Shown piece by piece: positions 4,966-40,000 of a stretch of 58,658 nt of DNA (its first letter is position 1; every line of letters begins with the position of its first letter). The stretch is from contig WFNH01000099.1 in assembly GCA_015488685.1 (NCBI GenBank), positions 1 to 58,658 of the forward strand, in the 5' to 3' direction. Source of the DNA: Marinosulfonomonas sp. (GTDB taxonomy: Bacteria > Pseudomonadota > Alphaproteobacteria > Rhodobacterales > Rhodobacteraceae). The notes below the pieces were generated by a model. It did not search any database and was not told the origin of the DNA. It worked only from the letters and a program-made list of their open reading frames with translations. A program made the position numbers and the translations under genes.

Positions 4966-6993
4966 TTAGCGGGAATAGGCCACCATCGTCAAAAGCTCAT
5001 ATTCGGCAACCTGTTCACCGTGTTGATTATACAATGTCGCGTTCCAGCGCACTTCGCCGTATTCATCGGTGCGGCGGGTCTTGCGTTTGGCCGTCAGGCG
5101 AACGTGGATTTCATCATCAGGACTGACCGGTTGCTGGAATGTCAGCGCGTTCAGACCGGTATTGGCCAGCACCGGCCCCGGATCGGGCTGCACGAACAGA
5201 CCGGCGGCAAAGGACAACAGCAGATAGCCATGCGCGACACGTCCGGGGAAGAACGGGTTGGCCTTGGCGGCGTCCTCGTCCATGTGGGCATAGAATGTAT
5301 CGCCAGTGAAATGGGCGAAATGCTCGATATCCTCAAGCGTCACCTTGCGGGGGTCGGTTGTGATGGTTTCCCCGATTTCGATTTCATGGAAAGTGCGCTG
5401 GAACGGATGACACGGCCCTGCCTTTTCTTCCGCCCCCGGCACCCAGACCCCGCCAATCGCGGTCAGAATATCGGGGCTGCCCTGAATGGCGGTGCGCTGC
5501 ATGTAGTGTAGCACGCCGCGGATACCACCCATTTCCTCGCCCCCGCCCGCACGACCCGGCCCACCGTGGGTCATATGTGGCAAGGGTGAGCCGTGGCCGG
5601 TGGCCTCTTTCGCCGAAGTCCGGTTATTGAAATACAGCCGACCATGCCAATGCGCGCTGGCCAGCGTGATGTCGCGGGCGATTTGCGGATCATTGGTGAT
5701 AACCGACGCCACAAGGCTGCCCTGCCCGCGGTTCGCCAAAGCGGCCGCATGGGCGGTGTCGCGATAAGGCAGGATGGTGGACACGGGGCCAAAAGCCTCG
5801 GTCGCATGAACCTGTTTCGCTGCGTCAGGATCGTCGCAGCGAAACAGCATCGGCGGCAGAAATCCGTGAGTGGGGTCTGCCCCTTGGGTATCGAAATTGT
5901 CAGGGTCGCCATAAACCCGCGTGGATTCGGTGCCGATCAGCGCCGCCATCTCCAGCACGTCGGCCTTTTGCGTGGCCGACACCAGCGCGCCCATGCGCAC
6001 GCCCTCTGCTTCGGGGTCGCCAATGGTGGTTTTATCCAGCCGCGCCGATAGCGCCACGATCACCGGATCCATCATTGCATCCGGCACGATCATCCGGCGG
6101 ATGGCGGTGCATTTCTGGCCAGCCTTGGTGGTCAGTTCCGTGGTGACCTCGCGAATGAACAGATCGAATTCGGGGCTTTCCGGCGTCACATCCAGACCCA
6201 TGATCGAGGCATTCAGACTATCCTGTTCGGCAATGAACCGTGTGCCGTTTTCGATGATGTTAGGCATGGAGCGCAGCGCAAGCGCGGTGCGGGCGGACCC
6301 GGTAAAACTGACCACATCCTGCGGCCCCAGCCGCGAGAGCAGATCGCCGGTGCGCCCGACGATCAGTTGCACTGCCCCCTCGGGCAGCAGCCCGCTGTCC
6401 ATCATGATGCGCACGCAGGCTTCGGTCAGGAAACTGGTTTGGGTGGCGGGTTTGACGATGCAGGGCACACCGGCCAACAGGGCAGGCGCCAGTTTTTCCA
6501 GCATCCCCCAGACGGGGAAATTGAAGGCATTGATATGCACCGCAACCCCGTGCAGCGGCAGGGCGATGTGTTGGCCCAGAAAGGTGCCGCCCCGCGATAG
6601 CTGCTCGATCCCGCCATCCAGATAGACGTGGCCATCGGGCATTTCGCGCCGTCCTTTTGACGCAAAAACGAACAACGTGCCAATGCCGCCGTCAATGTCG
6701 ATCCAGCCGTCCTTGCGGGTGGCACCGGTCAGCGGGTTCAGGGCGTAGATCTCTTCCTTGCGGCCATCGATATACATCGCCAATGCCTTCAGCATCTTGG
6801 CGCGTTCATGGAAGGTCATTGCCCGCAGTGCAGGACCGCCCTTTGAGGTGGCCCAGTCGATCATCCCCTGAAAATCCAGCGCCGTGCCACCTGCCCGCGC
6901 AATGGCCGCACCCGTGACGGGGCTGTTCAGAATCGCGGCATCCTGTGCAGGGGCAACCCATTGACCGGCGGCATAGCTGTGTGGCTCTAGCAT
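4966..6993 (-). CDS. paaZ: Bifunctional oxepin-CoA hydrolase / semialdehyde dehydrogenase PaaZ
   Basis: This 675-residue protein combines an N-terminal aldehyde dehydrogenase (about 1-525) and a C-terminal MaoC-like hydratase. Glu256 in FIAEQDSLN and Cys295 in AGQKCTAIRR match the catalytic pair known in E. coli PaaZ. The C-terminal GDTFYAH supplies the hydratase Asp and His. It opens oxepin-CoA and oxidises the resulting aldehyde to 3-oxo-5,6-dehydrosuberyl-CoA. The longest open frame starts 117 codons earlier, but MLEPHSYAAG at 6993 follows AAGGAGAATTCG and matches the family start, so that start is used. The gene is leftward, divergent from paaI. Confidence 0.95.
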   Translation of the reverse strand: MLEPHSYAAGQWVAPAQDAAILNSPVTGAAIARAGGTALDFQGMIDWATSKGGPALRAMTFHERAKMLKALAMYIDGRKEEIYALNPLTGATRKDGWIDIDGGIGTLFVFASKGRREMPDGHVYLDGGIEQLSRGGTFLGQHIALPLHGVAVHINAFNFPVWGMLEKLAPALLAGVPCIVKPATQTSFLTEACVRIMMDSGLLPEGAVQLIVGRTGDLLSRLGPQDVVSFTGSARTALALRSMPNIIENGTRFIAEQDSLNASIMGLDVTPESPEFDLFIREVTTELTTKAGQKCTAIRRMIVPDAMMDPVIVALSARLDKTTIGDPEAEGVRMGALVSATQKADVLEMAALIGTESTRVYGDPDNFDTQGADPTHGFLPPMLFRCDDPDAAKQVHATEAFGPVSTILPYRDTAHAAALANRGQGSLVASVITNDPQIARDITLASAHWHGRLYFNNRTSAKEATGHGSPLPHMTHGGPGRAGGGEEMGGIRGVLHYMQRTAIQGSPDILTAIGGVWVPGAEEKAGPCHPFQRTFHEIEIGETITTDPRKVTLEDIEHFAHFTGDTFYAHMDEDAAKANPFFPGRVAHGYLLLSFAAGLFVQPDPGPVLANTGLNALTFQQPVSPDDEIHVRLTAKRKTRRTDEYGEVRWNATLYNQHGEQVAEYELLTMVAYSR

Positions 6994-22631: not shown

Positions 22632-23444
22632 ATGCCAATGGATGGCACAAAAAACCTGAAGGGGGCGGCAGATGCCCCCTTCTACCTGCCTCAAGGGGAC
22701 GAGTGCGAGATTTTCCGCGCCGCCCACGCAAACAGCCTGCCCCTCTTGCTGAAAGGGCCGACCGGCTGTGGCAAAACCCGTTTCGTGGCCCATATGGCCG
22801 CTGAACTGAACCGGCCACTATATACCGTGGCCTGTCACGATGATCTTTCCGCCGCCGACCTGATTGGCCGCTACCTGCTAAAGGGTGGCGAAACCGTCTG
22901 GGTCGATGGCCCTCTGACCCGCGCCGTGCGCGAAGGGGCGATTTGTTACCTCGACGAAGTGGTCGAGGCCCGCAAGGACGTCACCGTGGTGTTGCACCCG
23001 CTGACCGACGATCGGCGCATCCTGCCGATAGACCGCACCAGCGAGGAGATCGAGGCCGCCGACGGCTTTATGCTGGTGGCGTCCTATAACCCCGGTTACC
23101 AGAATATCCTGAAAACCCTGAAACCCTCGACCCGACAGCGGTTCCTGTCGCTGGAATTCGATTTCCCCACACCCGAATTGGAAGCCGAAGTGGTGATGCG
23201 CGAAAGCGGTCTGGACAAGGAGCGCGTGCAAGGGCTGGTGCGTCTGGCCGGCAAGCTGCGCGCACTAAAGGGACAGGATCTGGAAGAAGGCGTTTCAACC
23301 CGCCTGATCGTTTACGCCGCCACGCTGGTGCAGCAGGGCATGTCGCTGGAACGCGCCGTTCTGGCGGCAATGATAGAACCTTTGACAGATGAAGAGGATG
23401 TGAAACGTGGGCTCCTAGACCTTGTAACTGCCGTCTTTGGGTGA
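22632..23444 (+). CDS. norQ: MoxR-type ATPase NorQ, nitric oxide reductase activation
   Basis: This 270-residue AAA+ ATPase of the MoxR/CbbQ type has Walker A GPTGCGKT at 43-50 and Walker B ICYLDE near 104-109. With NorD it helps insert the non-heme iron in NorB. The ATG at 22632 directly follows the norB stop; a second ATG at 22638 is equally possible because neither has a clear ribosome site. It overlaps the region of the norD start. Confidence 0.93.
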   Translation: MPMDGTKNLKGAADAPFYLPQGDECEIFRAAHANSLPLLLKGPTGCGKTRFVAHMAAELNRPLYTVACHDDLSAADLIGRYLLKGGETVWVDGPLTRAVREGAICYLDEVVEARKDVTVVLHPLTDDRRILPIDRTSEEIEAADGFMLVASYNPGYQNILKTLKPSTRQRFLSLEFDFPTPELEAEVVMRESGLDKERVQGLVRLAGKLRALKGQDLEEGVSTRLIVYAATLVQQGMSLERAVLAAMIEPLTDEEDVKRGLLDLVTAVFG

Positions 23445-32955: not shown

Positions 32956-34230
32956 CTAGCCGTTTTCCCGCAGAACAACCCCCGCCAGATAGAGCGACCC
33001 GCAGATCAGGATACGGGCGTTCGGGTCTGTCTGGATGATGTCGGCAATGGCGGATTGCACGTTGTCAGCAATATGCGTTTCCATACCCACCTGCTTTGCC
33101 GCTTTGGCGGTTTCGGCGGCGGGCAGGGTTGCGGCCTCGCCGGGGATAGAGACTGCGTGCAGGGATTTGGCATGTTGTGCCAGCGGGTGCAAATACTCGG
33201 TGATGTCTTTGGTGTTCAGCATACCGCAGATCAGGTGCAGCGGGCGGGTTGGCAGGCGGGTCAGGGCCTCGGACAGGGCATGTCCGGCGGCGGGGTTGTG
33301 GCCGCCATCCAGCCAGAGTTCGGCTGTGTCAGCGGCGCCCACCAGCGGGCCGTGATGCAGGCGTTGCAGGCGGGCGGGCCATTTGGCGTTCGTCACGGCG
33401 GCCTCGCAGGCCGTTTCGTCAAAACCCAACTGGCGTAGGGCGGCGATGGCGATACCGGCGTTCTGGATCTGGTGCGCGCCGATCAGGGCGGGAAGGGGCA
33501 GGTCCAGCAGGCCGGTTTCATCCTGATAGATCAAACGACCGCGTTCTTCCCAGACGTGCCAGTGCTGGCCATGCACCACCAGCGGCGCGCCAAGGCGGTT
33601 GGCGGTGGCCTCGATCACCTCTAATGCCTCGTCCGGTTGCGGTCCGACAATGCAGGGCACACTGCGTTTTATGATGCCCGCCTTTTCACCCGCAATTTGG
33701 GCAAGGGTATCGCCCAGAAACTGGGTGTGGTCGATGGACACCGGTGTGATCACCGTCAACGCGGGTTTATCCACCACGTTGGTTGCGTCCATCTTGCCGC
33801 CAAGACCGACTTCGAGCAGGGTATAATCGGCAGATGTTTCGGCAAAAGCCAGCAGGGCAGCGGCGGTGGTGATTTCGAAATAAGTGATCGTGTTGCCGTT
33901 GTTGGCTGTGTAACAACGGTCCAGCAGATCGGTCAGCGCCGGTTCGGATATATGCTCCCCCGCCAGCGTGATGCGTTCATGGAACCGTGCCAGATGCGGC
34001 GAGATGTAAGCGTGAACCGATTTCCCCGCGCCTTCCAGACCGGCCCGGATCATCGCTTGTGTTGACCCTTTGCCATTGGTGCCAGCGATATGGATCACGG
34101 GGGGCAATTTGCGTTCGGGGTGGCCAAGGGTGGCCAGCAGCGGGTCAATACGGTCAAAGGTCAGGTCGATGACCTTGGGGTGCAGCGTCATCATCCGCTC
34201 AAGGATGATGTCCGAGGCCGGCGTGCTCAC
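32956..34230 (-). CDS. folC: Dihydrofolate synthase / folylpolyglutamate synthase
   Basis: This 424-residue Mur-ligase-family protein has the P-loop [11 protein letters not shown] (50-56 core), the folate-binding [13 protein letters not shown] and the [12 protein letters not shown] segment. It adds glutamate to dihydropteroate and then to tetrahydrofolate. The start overlaps the accD stop by 4 bases (ATGA), a common accD-folC arrangement in bacteria. Confidence 0.96.
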
Positions 34231-35150
34231 TTTTCTTCCGCAGGTTGGTCGGGGGTTTCGGCGGCTTCCTTGGGAGCGGGCAGATCGCCCATCACTGGCG
34301 GGCTCATCCCCATCAGCATCCGCACGATGGTGACCAGTTCGTCGCGCATATCCTTGCGGTGGGTCACGCGGTCCAGCATGCCGTGGTCCAGCAGGTATTC
34401 CGACCGCTGGAACCCTTCGGGCAGTTTTTCACCGATGGTCTGTTCAATCACCCGCGCACCGGCAAAACCGATCAGGGCGTTTGGCTCGGCAATCTGCACA
34501 TCGCCCAGCATCGCGTAGGACGCGGTAACCCCGCCGGTGGTCGGATGGGTCAGCACGACGATATAGGGCAGGCCGGCCTCGCGCAGCATTTGCACGGCAA
34601 CCGTGGTGCGGGGCATTTGCATCAGGGAAAGGATACCCTCTTGCATCCGCGCGCCGCCAGCAGCGGAAAACAGGATAAAGGGGCGCTTGGTGGCCACGGC
34701 ACGTTCGGCGGCGGCGATGATGGCGTTGCCGACATACATGCCCATCGAGCCACCCATAAAGCTGAAATCCTGTGCTGCGGCGATGATCGGGGTGCGGCCG
34801 ATCTCGCCTTCGACCACTAGAATTGCGTCCTTTTCGCCGGTCTTTTTCTGCGCGGCCTTGATGCGTTCGGGATATTTCTTTTGATCCTTGAACGTCAGCG
34901 GGTCCAGCGGCACATCCGGCACTTCGATTTCGGTAAAAATTCCGCCGTCAAACAGATGCTCGAACCGTTCACGCGGCGTGATCAGCATATGATGGCCACA
35001 TTCGCCACATACCTGCTGGTTTTCCTTCAGTTCGCGGTGAAATAGCATGGTGCCGCACTCGGGGCATTTGGTCCACAGGTTGTCCGGCGTTTCGCGACGC
35101 GAAAACAGCGAGTTGATCGTGGGGCGAACGTAGTTGTTGATCCAGTTCAT
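34227..35150 (-). CDS. accD: Acetyl-CoA carboxylase carboxyltransferase subunit beta
   Basis: This 307-residue protein has an N-terminal zinc ribbon (Cys29, Cys32, Cys48, Cys51 in CPECG and CGECG) and the carboxyltransferase crotonase-like core with [14 protein letters not shown] and [11 protein letters not shown]. With AccA it transfers the carboxyl group from biotin to acetyl-CoA, the first step of fatty acid synthesis. It lies between the CPBP gene and folC on the same strand. Confidence 0.97.
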
Positions 35151-35215
35151 CGGGTCGGCACCTATGCAGTGTTTTTGTTAACTTCCGAGATAAGCTGCGT
35201 TTGGGGAAATTGCAA

Positions 35216-36097
35216 TCAACGGTCAAGTGCAATGCGCAAAATCCGCCAGATAACCAGCAACAAAAGCAGATCCATGCCCAGCGCCAAAGGCAGTTCTGCC
35301 GTATCTGCCTTGTCAAACGGTGTCACATACAGGGCCAGCCCCGTGATGGTATCCTGCACCGATACAAACAGTATCGCAAAGATGTTGTTGGCGAAATGCA
35401 GGCCAATCGCGGCCCCCAAACTGCCGGTTCGTTGCACCAGATCCGAAGCAATCAGAGCCATAGTAAAGGTCACCCCGATCACCAGCCATTTATTGCTGCC
35501 CATCGCCGGATCCCAATGCAGCGCGGCGAACAGGGCGGCGGGCAGGATCATCCAGACAATTGGCGATTTGAACCGCGCGGCCAGTTGTTGTTGCAGATAG
35601 CCGCGAAAGATCAGCTCCTCGGCGCTGGTCTGGATCAGGATCAGCGGGATGGCATAGGGTAGATAGCCCAGCCATTCCTCCAGCGGCAGGTTAGGCTGCA
35701 CGGGCTGGAACCACAGCATAACCGCGCTATAGACGGCCATGATCAGCAGCACCGTGATGGTCGCCGTCAGAAAGCCGCGGATGGTTACATCCAATGGTCC
35801 GAACAAAGTGCCCGGCCCGCGCATGTGGCAGGCAGGTGCAGCGATGATCGGGCCCAGCGCCATGCCGGTAAAGGTAAACAGCATGATCAGGGTCGGCACC
35901 GCGCCTTGCACCGTCAGCACCGCGTTGGCCCAGCGCAAAGACCCCATCGGAAAGGTGGCGATAACCCCTGCCCATAACACCAGCGCGATGAACCCGAAGT
36001 AAACAAACAGGATCAGCAGGATGCCAAGCCCCAGCCGCCAGATTTGCGGATACAGGCGGGCGGGGGCGATGTAGGCGTTGAATTCGGGTGTGCGCAT
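35216..36097 (-). CDS. CPBP-family intramembrane metalloprotease
   Basis: This 293-residue protein has about eight hydrophobic helices. The CPBP (CAAX protease and bacteriocin-processing) motifs are EELIFRG (Glu160, Glu161, Arg165), His194 in AALHWD and His234 in GLHFANN. The family cleaves or processes membrane substrates; the target here is unknown. The longest frame adds about 74 residues without hydrophobic sense; the ATG at 36097 is used although its ribosome site is weak. Likely co-transcribed with accD-folC, 65 bases away. Confidence 0.88.
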   Translation of the reverse strand: MRTPEFNAYIAPARLYPQIWRLGLGILLILFVYFGFIALVLWAGVIATFPMGSLRWANAVLTVQGAVPTLIMLFTFTGMALGPIIAAPACHMRGPGTLFGPLDVTIRGFLTATITVLLIMAVYSAVMLWFQPVQPNLPLEEWLGYLPYAIPLILIQTSAEELIFRGYLQQQLAARFKSPIVWMILPAALFAALHWDPAMGSNKWLVIGVTFTMALIASDLVQRTGSLGAAIGLHFANNIFAILFVSVQDTITGLALYVTPFDKADTAELPLALGMDLLLLLVIWRILRIALDR

Positions 36098-36173
36098 GAG
36101 GGAACAGCATTCAGCAATGTTTGGGGTTGTGCAAGGTGGAAATGTGGTCAAACTGCGTTTCAGGAGGCCCCAT

Positions 36174-36422
36174 ATGTTAGTAAAAGAACTCTTCCCCGTT
36201 GCCCAAATCCGCGTGCCGGTCAAACGCGCCAAAACGCTTGATGCCGCCAAGGTGCAGGAAATCGCCGAAAGCATGTTGGAAGAGGGGCAGACCACACCCA
36301 TTCGGGTGCGCAAATCCAAGGACGGCTATGTGCTGATCGAAGGGCTGCACCGGCTGGAGGCGCTAAAGGCGCTGGGAGAGGAAACGGTCGAGGGGTATCT
36401 GGTGAGGGCGGTGCTGCATTGA
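36174..36422 (+). CDS. Small ParB N-terminal domain-like protein
   Basis: The 82-residue product matches only the ParB/sulfiredoxin-type N-terminal fold: VAQIRVPVKRAKTLDAAKVQ, SMLEEGQTTPIRVRKS, then YVLIEGLHRLEALKALGEE, where GLHRLEA corresponds to the ParB nucleotide-binding GxxRxxA segment. No helix-turn-helix or dimer domain follows, so it is not a partition protein. ATG 36174 follows AGGAGGCCCCAT and is clearly better than an in-frame ATG at 36078. Such stand-alone domains may bind or hydrolyse CTP, which is inferred. Its final 105 bases are repeated at 36882. Confidence 0.8.
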   Translation: MLVKELFPVAQIRVPVKRAKTLDAAKVQEIAESMLEEGQTTPIRVRKSKDGYVLIEGLHRLEALKALGEETVEGYLVRAVLH

Positions 36423-36428
36423 GGGAGG
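36324..36428 (+). repeat. Direct repeat, copy 1 (3' end of the ParB-like gene)
   Basis: This 105-base segment contains the last 33 codons and the stop of the ParB-like gene plus GGGAGG. It recurs at 36882-36986 with seven substitutions by eye (about 93 percent identity). The unit spacing is 558 bases. Confidence 0.9.
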
Positions 36429-36435
36429 GGAATTG

Positions 36436-36852
36436 ATGTCATTAACGCAACGTGTGCTTATATGGCCGCTTATTGCACTTGTTACCGTCTTTAGCCCGAA
36501 AGATGCGCAAGCGGTTATCGTGTTTGATTGCATCCTTACAAGCGACACTGGCGATTCTGCAGTGGTGAAAATGACCACAATGCCTGACAATAAAGTCCGG
36601 TTCGAGCTTAATGGCGTCACAGTAATTGGTATTATTGTCCCGCCATTTACTGATCACGGCAGAAACCTTGCAGTGGCCGCTACTCAGCGCGACGGGCGCA
36701 TTTATACTATCGCAATGCACCGGAAATTTTACCGGCCTGATCCGAGTGGGCATGATCCTTCACGGCTACCGACAACTATGACGGTTCAATTTGCGAATGA
36801 TGATATTGTCCCACTTGTGGAAATATATACTGGTAGATGCACATATAAATAG
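36436..36852 (+). CDS. Secreted protein of unknown function
   Basis: This 138-residue protein has a signal peptide (SLTQRVLIWPLIALVTVFSP, cleavage after about AQA at 26) and a mature domain of beta-rich appearance with two cysteines (FDC near the start and GRC near the end), perhaps disulfide-bonded. I recognise no family. GGGAGGGG, the sequence right after the ParB-like stop, serves as its ribosome site. Its base composition is visibly less GC-rich than the neighbours, and it is enclosed by the 105-base direct repeats, which suggests insertion. Periplasmic location is inferred. Confidence 0.7.
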   Translation: MSLTQRVLIWPLIALVTVFSPKDAQAVIVFDCILTSDTGDSAVVKMTTMPDNKVRFELNGVTVIGIIVPPFTDHGRNLAVAATQRDGRIYTIAMHRKFYRPDPSGHDPSRLPTTMTVQFANDDIVPLVEIYTGRCTYK

Positions 36853-36878
36853 CTCCCTCATTCGGGCTTTAAAAGCGC

Positions 36879-36980
36879 GTGGGCTATGTGCTGATCGAGG
36901 GTCTGCACCGGCTAGAGGCGCTAAAGGCGCTGGGCGAGGAAATGGTTGAGGGGTATCTGGTGCGGGCGGTGCTGCATTGA
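36879..36980 (+). pseudogene. Fragment duplicating the C-terminus of the ParB-like gene
   Basis: The frame GYVLIEGLHRLEALKALGEE then MVEGYLVRAVLH and stop repeats the end of the gene at 36174-36422 with only Thr to Met changed in the protein. The upstream two thirds of the gene is missing and what precedes it is unrelated, so this is a gene remnant, even though GTG at 36879 could in principle start a 33-residue peptide. The DNA copy spans 36882-36986. Confidence 0.85.
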
Positions 36981-37030
36981 GGGAGGCTATTTGCAGGTCT
37001 ATACAGATTTTTAGCATCGGCCATACAGCC

Positions 37031-37491
37031 TGCATTACTGGCAAAAGATGCCCGTTTCTATTGTATGCTGCACCGACCCAAATAATCTCAGGATTGGCCC
37101 GGTAGATGATCTAAGGCAAACAGAACTCCCGACAACGATGCGACCAAAGGGATCTTTGGCCGGTAACGAAAGGATACCGTTATTCGTATCAACTATAAGC
37201 ACGACATCAAAACCTCTTGTTTCTGTCATCGGCTTTATTTCGCGAACAAGGACTCTTTGGAAACTTACATCTCGGGCGGGGCCAAAGAAAAGTAACCCGA
37301 CAATTCCGGCAAGAACGACTACAAATAGAACTGCCAACCGAAATTGTGGGTCACGCTGGCGGTTTTTCCTGATCAAACGATCAAGTTCTTTGTTTTTATG
37401 GTTGTTCAAATTTAGTTCCCTAATGCACAAAAACCTATTGCAAGCTATAGCAACCCAATAATTCCAGATGAAAGTATAATGCATTACTGGC
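37031..37491. repeat. Segment bounded by a 12-base direct repeat
   Basis: TGCATTACTGGC occurs at 37031-37042 and again at 37480-37491. The segment between them coincides with the leftward membrane-protein gene, whose stop lies in the first copy and whose start lies in the second. This may be the footprint of an insertion event or a chance match. Confidence 0.5.
37035..37484 (-). CDS. Hypothetical single-span membrane protein
   Basis: This 149-residue frame has a basic, asparagine-rich N-terminal part ([20 protein letters not shown]), one transmembrane helix (about 50-68, [19 protein letters not shown]) and a hydrophilic C-terminal domain with [19 protein letters not shown]. No family was recognised. 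The first 24 residues, including two cysteines and [10 protein letters not shown], may be untranslated; a later start is possible. Base composition is AT-richer than the adjacent ilvD gene. It is bounded by a 12-base direct repeat. Confidence 0.6.
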
Positions 37492-37565
37492 CTTCACTGC
37501 AAACTCACTTGATGAACCCGCCCCCATCCCCTATTCAAATTCCAAGCTTTATTCAGGGGTCCATC

Positions 37566-39299
37566 ATGAAAAACACCAAGTTCGACAAATCAAACCTTCC
37601 CAGCCGTCATGTCACCGAAGGGCCCGAACGGGCACCGCATCGCTCTTACCTTTATGCGATGGGCCTGTCCGAGGATGAAATCCACCAGCCGCTGGTCGGT
37701 GTGGCCACCTGCTGGAACGAGGCCGCGCCCTGTAACATCGCCCTGAACCGTCAGGCGCAGGTGGTCAAGATGGGTGTGAAAGCCGCCGAAGGCACCCCGC
37801 GTGAATTTACCACCATCACCGTCACCGACGGCATCGCGATGGGGCATGAGGGGATGCGTTCCTCCCTTGCCAGCCGCGAGGCGATTGCGGATTCGGTTGA
37901 ACTGACCATGCGCGGCCATTGCTATGACGCGCTGGTGGGGCTGGCCGGTTGTGACAAATCCCTGCCCGGCATGATGATGGCGATGGTGCGTCTGAACGTG
38001 CCCTCTGTGTTCATCTATGGCGGCTCGATCCTGCCCGGTCGTCTGGATGGCCGCGACGTGACCGTTCAGGACGTGTTCGAGGCCGTGGGCCAGCATCAGG
38101 CGGGCAACATGACAGATGCCGAGCTGGAAATGCTGGAATCGGTTGCCTGTCCGTCCGCCGGTGCCTGTGGTGGCCAGTTCACCGCCAACACGATGGCATG
38201 TGTGAGCGAGGCGATCGGCCTTGCCCTGCCCAATTCCGCCGGTGCCCCCGCCCCCTACGAAAGCCGCGATCAGTATGCCGAGGCGTCCGGCGTGGCGGTG
38301 ATGAACCTGCTTGAAAAGAACATCCGCGCGCGCGACATCGTCACCCGCGAGGCGCTGATCAATGCAGCGCGTGTGGTGGCCTGCACCGGTGGCAGCACCA
38401 ACGCCGGTCTGCACCTGCCCGCGATTGCGCACGAGGCAGGCATTGATTTCGACCTGACCGACGTTTGCGACATCTTCCGCGAGACCCCCTATTTCGTCGA
38501 TCTGAAACCGGGCGGGCAATATGTGGCCAAGGATTTGTACGAAGCCGGCGGCGTGCCGGTGATCATGAAAGAACTGGACAAGGCCGGTCTGATCCATCGC
38601 GATGTGATGACATCCACCGGCCGCAGCATGGGCGAGGAAATCGACATCGTCACCCGTCAGGCAGACGGCAAGGTAATCTATCCGGTGGAAACCCCGTTGT
38701 CGCCAACCGGCGGTGTGGTTGGCCTGAAGGGCAATCTGGCCCCCGATGGCGCGATTGTAAAAGTCGCCGGTATGGAAGAGGACCAACGTGTATTCAGCGG
38801 CCCTGCCCGCGTGTTTGAATGCGAAGAAGACGCGTTTGATGCAGTGCAAAAGCGGGAATACAAGGAAGGCGAGGTTCTGGTCATCCGCAATGAAGGCCCC
38901 GCAGGCGGCCCCGGTATGCGCGAAATGCTGGCGACCACGGCGGCGCTGTCGGGTCAGGGCATGGGCAAGAAGGTGGCGCTGATTACGGATGGCCGCTTTT
39001 CCGGTGCGACCCGCGGGTTCTGCGTCGGCCACGTCGGCCCCGAGGCCGCGCATGGCGGTCCGATTGCAATGGTTCAGGATGGCGACATCATCACGCTGGA
39101 CGCGATCAAGGGCGAAATCTCGGTTAATGTCAGCGATGAAGAAATGGCCAAACGCAAGGAAGCATGGGGCGGAGCGCGCAAGACAATCTATGCTTCGGGT
39201 GCCTTGTGGAAATACGCCCAGCAGGTTGGTCCAACCAGACTCGGGGCTGTTACCCATCCCGGCGCCAAGGCCGAAGGCCATATATATATGGATCTTTGA
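37566..39299 (+). CDS. ilvD: Dihydroxy-acid dehydratase
   Basis: This 577-residue protein has the IlvD/Edd features: [28 protein letters not shown] and [16 protein letters not shown], which supply iron-sulfur cysteines. Near the C-terminus is [15 protein letters not shown] followed by [19 protein letters not shown]. It converts 2,3-dihydroxy-3-methylbutanoate or -pentanoate to the keto acids of valine and isoleucine synthesis. The frame is open back to 37479, but ATG 37566 ([20 protein letters not shown]) matches the family start. The next gene begins on its stop codon (TGATG). Confidence 0.97.
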
Positions 39300-40000
39300 T
39301 GCTGCGGTATATCGGGTTCGCGCTGGCGACCCTGACGATTTTATCCGGTTGTACGGGAGCGGGCGGCGGCTTTGCCCTGCCCAAACCCGCACCCGCACAA
39401 ATCAGGGTCGCAAATAAGGAAGTTCTGATTGCAGGACCAAAGGGGTTCTGCATTGACCCGACCGAAACGCGGGATGAAGGCGACAGCGCCTTTGTTCTGC
39501 TGGGCAGCTGTGCGGCGATTGCAAACTCGCGCAGCAAACCACACCCCAAAGTGCCGGCAATCCTGACCGCTACAGTGTCCCGAAAAACCGCAAATCCGCC
39601 AATCACCAATTCAATGCCCGCCCTGACAGATTTCTTTACCACAAAGGCAGGCCGTGCGGCGCTGAGTCGGAACGGCAACGCGGATACTGTCGAGGTGGTC
39701 AAAACACTGGATCGGGACGGTGTATTCTATATCCGCGCGCGGGACAGCAGTTCGGACACATTGGCAGGGGCTGCAGATGAATACTGGCGGGCCTTGTTCG
39801 ATGTGAATGGCAGGATTGTTTCGGCATCCGTTTTCGGACTTAGGGAACATCCGATTCCATCTGAAAAGGGCTTTGATGTCTTGCAGGGGTTCACCAGCCG
39901 GATCAGAACCCGAAACACTTCCGGACCCGATCAAGTTGCCCTGGAAAACAAGCCGCGTATCCCCTTTTTCAAGCGGGTGTTTAAAAGGAAGCCCGAATAG
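39299..40000 (+). CDS. Putative lipoprotein of unknown function
   Basis: This 233-residue protein begins [18 protein letters not shown], with a lipobox LSGC and lipid-modified Cys18, then a proline-rich linker and a domain with GFCIDPTETRDEGDSAFVLLG. The C-terminal tail is basic (FFKRVFKRKPE). I recall similar hypothetical lipoproteins in Rhodobacteraceae without assigned function. It overlaps the ilvD stop by one base (TGATG), so translation is coupled although no metabolic link is apparent. Confidence 0.82.
   Translation: MLRYIGFALATLTILSGCTGAGGGFALPKPAPAQIRVANKEVLIAGPKGFCIDPTETRDEGDSAFVLLGSCAAIANSRSKPHPKVPAILTATVSRKTANPPITNSMPALTDFFTTKAGRAALSRNGNADTVEVVKTLDRDGVFYIRARDSSSDTLAGAADEYWRALFDVNGRIVSASVFGLREHPIPSEKGFDVLQGFTSRIRTRNTSGPDQVALENKPRIPFFKRVFKRKPE

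Follow-up and report, generated by a model that had tools for sequence, protein, structure and literature searches.

A diverged repeat of a parB-like gene end flanks a passenger gene in a variable locus of Marinosulfonomonas: a candidate scar of gene exchange

Site-specific integration in the 3′ ends of genes is a known type of system. The locus described here, between a parB-like gene and ilvD of a Marinosulfonomonas genome, resembles such systems in that an intact gene and a repeat of its 3′ end enclose an insert. In contrast to them, no integrase was found, the repeat is 7% diverged, the insert measures about 450 bp, and such a repeat was not seen in relatives (0 of 80 loci above background). 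Transposition with target-site duplication was also considered and rejected, as it would be expected to leave short identical repeats, whereas we found 105 bp at 93% identity with six of the seven coding differences being synonymous.

Gene-turnover hotspots without recognisable mobile elements are described in a portion of PMC5635113. Set beside the hotspots as portrayed in that portion, the locus is alike in its conserved flanks, in a content that varies among relatives, and in that no recombinase gene was seen by Pfam in the versions of the window and of the relatives G001 and G002. It is unlike them in carrying IS pieces in a third relative, G003, and in that part of a flanking gene is retained as a second copy in the window; the genus sample compared is small. 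Integration by homologous plus illegitimate recombination (homology-facilitated illegitimate recombination) is described in excerpts of PMC3240628. Recombination as outlined in these excerpts would likewise yield one homologous and one non-homologous joint together with a partial allele copy, but here it is deduced from one fossil junction, without a donor. The locus resembles an ordinary scar left by gene exchange, not a new kind of mobile element, and does not change the general understanding. It does offer a readable example of accessory genes settling between conserved genes without a visible recombinase while the upstream gene stays intact, with a passenger that possibly borrows the ribosome-binding sequence of that upstream gene.

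A repeated parB end around a passenger gene

The window, that is the whole stretch of DNA analysed (58,658 nucleotides), is one entire contig of a Marinosulfonomonas draft genome of 3.39 Mb in 133 contigs. The following features are referred to below.

36174-36422, plus strand: complete parB-like gene, 82 aa, stand-alone ParB_N-type domain (Pfam and NCBIfam near misses; orthologues 53-99% identical)
36324-36435, plus strand: copy 1 of the parB end, the 3′ end of the complete parB-like gene (alignment, BLAST, repeat search)
36423-36430, plus strand: GGGAGGGG, which probably serves the passenger gene as ribosome-binding site
36436-36852, plus strand: passenger gene, 138 aa, predicted to be secreted; no family, two Cys in the mature part, predicted to be mostly beta
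36847-36992, no strand: imperfect inverted repeat around copy 2 (arms about 36847-36860 and 36978-36992), suggestive only
36882-36986, plus strand: copy 2, a partial parB end (33 codons with the stop, followed by 6 nt) that has kept its frame and lacks the N-terminal part
37035-37484, minus strand: second accessory gene, 133-149 aa depending on the start codon, with a relative beside ilvD in G006
37566-39299, plus strand: ilvD, which forms the conserved right border (the window is homologous to G001 again from 37506)

A preliminary description of this DNA had reported that the last 105 bases of the parB gene, including the stop codon and the following GGGAGG, are repeated downstream at about 93% identity. 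BLAST and alignment bore this out. The last 105 bases of the 82-aa ParB_N-like gene recur at 36882-36986 (93% identity, E = 5.2e-40), and a longer alignment of 36324-36435 with 36882-36993 retained 91% identity over 112 nt. The repeated stretch takes in both the parB stop and GGGAGG, and the two copies are spaced 558 bp apart. As a repeat search (seed 12) of the 58.7-kb window reported no direct repeat of 40 nt or longer other than the parB end, we do not attribute it to chance; a third place for it was not found in the own genome by BLAST at E ≤ 0.001. Copy 2 comprises the last 33 parB codons with the stop and nothing else that is clearly kept, and is not a complete gene. Around copy 2, an inverted repeat of 14-15 bp forms a stem with one bulge, the left arm of which contains the passenger stop codon. 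This structure was found after looking, with 67 of 20,000 shuffles scoring equally locally and 39 of 2,000 over the whole passenger; the single-strand DNA fold of the region, likewise found after looking, has a z of -2.57.

The 82-aa protein scored below the curated thresholds of both ParB_N (PF02195; 25.5 bits versus a Pfam cut-off of 26.3) and TIGR00180 (30 bits versus 58.45). Since both profiles are near misses, we name it ParB_N-like only. It contains an EGLHR motif, which we take to be reminiscent of ParB/sulfiredoxin-type domains, and is distributed across Rhodobacteraceae and some Hyphomicrobiales. In a parB search of 394 genomes of the family, 190 gave a match, mostly to other ParB proteins; clear orthologues, defined by E ≤ 6.8e-21, amounted to 53 rows in 52 genomes (window included) among the matches listed, which reach to about E 9e-5. 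None of the 51 further family genomes with such an orthologue had a second C-terminal parB piece among these matches; partial ends of lower similarity in distant genomes may fall below the range listed. The same search returned a second, N-terminal partial parB match in G385 and two equal parB copies, on two contigs, in G273. Each of the 80 loci of another collection gave one parB match at E ≤ 1e-3 and no second. The best second match to the parB end in these loci reached 24 of 40 bases, compared to 36 of 40 in the window, and the 15 top rows of the scan reached 23-24 of 40, while reverse-strand matches in those rows came to 21-25. With no second parB end above background in any of the 80, the neighbour genes of these relatives were therefore not carried there via such repeats.

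The parB-ilvD interval in related genomes

The genus set consisted of eight genomes with a completeness of 66-100%, four of which (window included) have a parB orthologue; L040 was added from another collection, and G002 and G003, present in both collections (there as L041 and L042), were counted once. In the window, G001, G002 and L040, accD is followed by a CPBP-protease-like gene, parB, the variable part and ilvD. G003 has the same order, but across two contigs with the same IS3-type end, which we compared and did not join. The comparison of this interval in related strains, already proposed in the preliminary description, revealed sites with a single parB and other content in G001, G002, G003 and L040, and no relative with both copies. 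Neither of the two findings that the preliminary description had named as speaking against its reading turned up, as relatives with both copies were not seen and copy 2 is not a whole gene.

The distance from the parB stop to ilvD is 1143 bp in the window, 986 bp in G001, 498 bp in L040 and 2121 bp in G002. In G001 the interval encodes one 261-aa minus-strand protein. A 58% relative of that protein is found in G002, together with a PNPOx-like and a glyoxalase-like gene; G003 has an unrelated ORF beside IS3-type transposase pieces, and the 498 bp of L040 hold no ORF above 74 aa. The content differs in each of these four congeners, in all of which both flanks were seen; one related gene is common to two of them. 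Homology to the parB region of the window stops at 36432 in G001, 36425 in G002 and 36429 in G003, which is 3 to 10 bases past the parB stop, and resumes at 37506 in both G001 and G002. Between its conserved flanking genes, the parB-ilvD interval forms a small locus of variable content, or accessory-gene hotspot. The IS3-type transposase pieces of G003 lie at 3074-4178 of L010 and 2600-2726 of L140, and the same IS end terminates both contigs.

In 200-nt windows, GC is 0.45-0.51 in the passenger and 0.40-0.47 in the downstream minus-strand ORF, while flanking windows from 34000 to 40000 range from 0.50 to 0.69, mostly near 0.6. The low-GC tract extends past the passenger to just before ilvD because of the second accessory gene on the minus strand. 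This gene had no relative in plasmids, and a search of the 394 family genomes gave its own match, two at E 0.009 and no others. Neither interval gene had any Pfam match at E ≤ 1, a recombinase family included. The G006 contig ends inside a relative of the minus-strand gene (55% over 62 residues), directly upstream of ilvD, and neither parB nor a left-flank match was found in that assembly. This adjacency suggests that parB-minus-strand gene-ilvD may be the older order. The locus is not kept in G004 and G005, where no parB orthologue is present and CPBP and ilvD lie on separate contigs with other neighbours; the G007 contig ends a few hundred bases past CPBP, and a parB was not found anywhere in G007. 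When 22 Ruegeria loci were set against L089, five of them (L094, L103, L106, L111 and L117, near 5249-5268) lost homology within some 20 bases of the parB stop, so the parB end borders variable DNA elsewhere too.

The passenger gene and its probable ribosome site

The preliminary description had placed a lower-GC gene for a secreted protein between the copies, and a 138-aa ORF of lowered GC is indeed found there. Its start is a hydrophobic, signal-peptide-like stretch as read by eye, and the protein is probably secreted. It matched nothing in Pfam at E ≤ 1, and no NCBIfam profile reached its cut-off. A single-sequence AlphaFold model shows eight strands at low confidence (mean pLDDT 64.4), and Foldseek of this model against the PDB gave no match with E ≤ 0.001; therefore, we claim no fold.

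The passenger is absent at E ≤ 0.01 from the seven other genomes of the genus (completeness 66-100%). Across 393 other family genomes it has one strong relative, in G391 (33% identity, E 1e-23), and weak matches in six further genomes (E 0.005-0.008). A plasmid search matched one record, from Leisingera, and no relatives were found in phages or viral contigs. This patchy spread fits an accessory gene. The neighbours of the G391 relative were read by eye as nucleoside diphosphate kinase and peroxiredoxin; distant relatives thus lie between housekeeping genes of another genus (L121, 1402-1863) and on the Leisingera plasmid (L134, 4001-4371; 30% identity), where no gene is listed.

The ribosome site of the passenger had been proposed to come from the repeat. 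GGGAGGGG lies 5 nt before the passenger ATG, with 13 nt between the parB stop and that ATG, and the proposed role is probable as judged from position and sequence. GGGAG also follows the parB stop in L040, and the motif therefore probably predates the passenger, which would mean that the passenger probably uses a ribosome-site sequence already present before its arrival. We infer that the passenger is co-transcribed with parB. A terminator scan found none, and a promoter scan gave one promoter-like match versus 2.1 expected by chance.

Divergence of the copies and origin of the junction

Copies 1 and 2 differ at 7 of 99 coding positions, six of the differences being synonymous. A recent target duplication would have left identical copies and is therefore not indicated; with no recombinase family among the interval genes either, a simple insertion with duplication of the target end, as the preliminary description had it, was not supported. 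Cargo swapping by recombination between the repeats, which it also named, fared no better, as no relative with both copies was seen. What stands of this proposal is the variable locus with different genes in relatives, but neither mechanism.

Over the 99 positions, copy 1 differs from G001 at 5 and copy 2 differs from G001 at 10, and the distance between the copies is about that of a sister-species allele. At one codon, AGG is found in copy 1 and G001, and a CGN codon in copy 2 as in L040, G003 and G002; at other codons the two copies are alike, against G001. By eye, outgroups assign four or five changes to copy 2, one of them nonsynonymous, and the neutrality P from this very small count is about 0.05 (one of five) or about 0.12 (one of four). 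This leans towards copy 2 having diverged for the most part within a functional gene of another lineage before it was joined here. In a tree of the 99-bp end, in which the row of L049 (gene three bases longer) is misaligned, copy 1 grouped with G001 at a bootstrap of 29. None of four topologies was rejected on the 99 sites, and the two with copy 1 next to G001 scored best.

We regard it as roughly an even call that the locus is a scar in which two diverged parB-end alleles were joined head-to-tail by partly illegitimate recombination within the variable locus. The event would have relied on homology at no more than one of its two sides, the other being joined illegitimately, with (accD-CPBP-)parB-passenger as the left part of the junction and partial parB′-minus-strand gene-ilvD as the right part. 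One allele would stem from a close congener and may have arrived via transformation, a gene transfer agent or similar. As an outcome, parB would remain intact with the passenger 13 nt behind its stop codon, where the parB promoter could serve the passenger and the GGGAGG already in place could act as its ribosome site, and a parB tail without N-terminal part would be left downstream as residue. Both the recombination route and the donor are our inference from the junction. No donor with a copy-2-like allele was found among the genomes searched, and the right flank shows no obvious identity shift to G001 or G006 beside the interval. The own genome has a ComEC match (a family also matched in 10 of 14 control genomes) and a match to TIGR02218, which is presumably linked to GTAs; DNA uptake or GTA transfer as the allele source is conceivable on these matches.

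Tandem duplication followed by replacement, also raised in the preliminary description, remains a rival, which we consider possible though distinctly the less probable account. Here, an old duplication of all or part of parB, in the common ancestor or early in the lineage, would have been followed by divergence, with the second copy losing its N-terminal part and the passenger being placed between the copies. The copies as sisters were not rejected (p-AU 0.18, with the L049 row misaligned and too few AU replicates according to a program warning). Weak similarity also runs about 20 bases to the left of copy 2 (CATTCGGG), where 249 of 5000 shuffles scored equally against copy 1 and 140 of 5000 against G001, whereas the same test gave 535 against L040, 1717 against G003 and 1688 against G002. 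Against a duplication speak that no relative was seen with a second copy, and that the changes in copy 2 are, on a very small count, mostly synonymous, unlike those of a free-running fragment.

It is unlikely that the passenger is a mobile unit which recombines through the repeated parB end, by att-like sites or RecA cassette swapping, with precise deletion or exchange. The passenger is flanked by direct repeats, other genes sit at the same point in relatives, and recombination between the copies would presumably give back one intact parB; yet the loci of 80 relatives have no att-like second parB end, neither interval gene matches a recombinase family in Pfam, and the copies are 7% diverged. 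Very unlikely, too, is that the end of the ParB_N-like gene with GGGAGG is a recurrent landing edge, at which the diverged repeat permits loss of the passenger and restores parB; if true, this would be a recombinase-free cassette site whose incoming genes become next in the operon. A strain chimera or assembly artefact, to which a draft of 133 contigs with the window as a whole contig might lend itself, is the faintest prospect, since a merger of strains at a repeat of 105 bp should collapse the copies rather than give two diverged ones.

Apart from the parB end, the window contains a 45-nt inverted repeat (6726-6770 and 22963-23007), 71% complementary, with its arms 16 kb apart.
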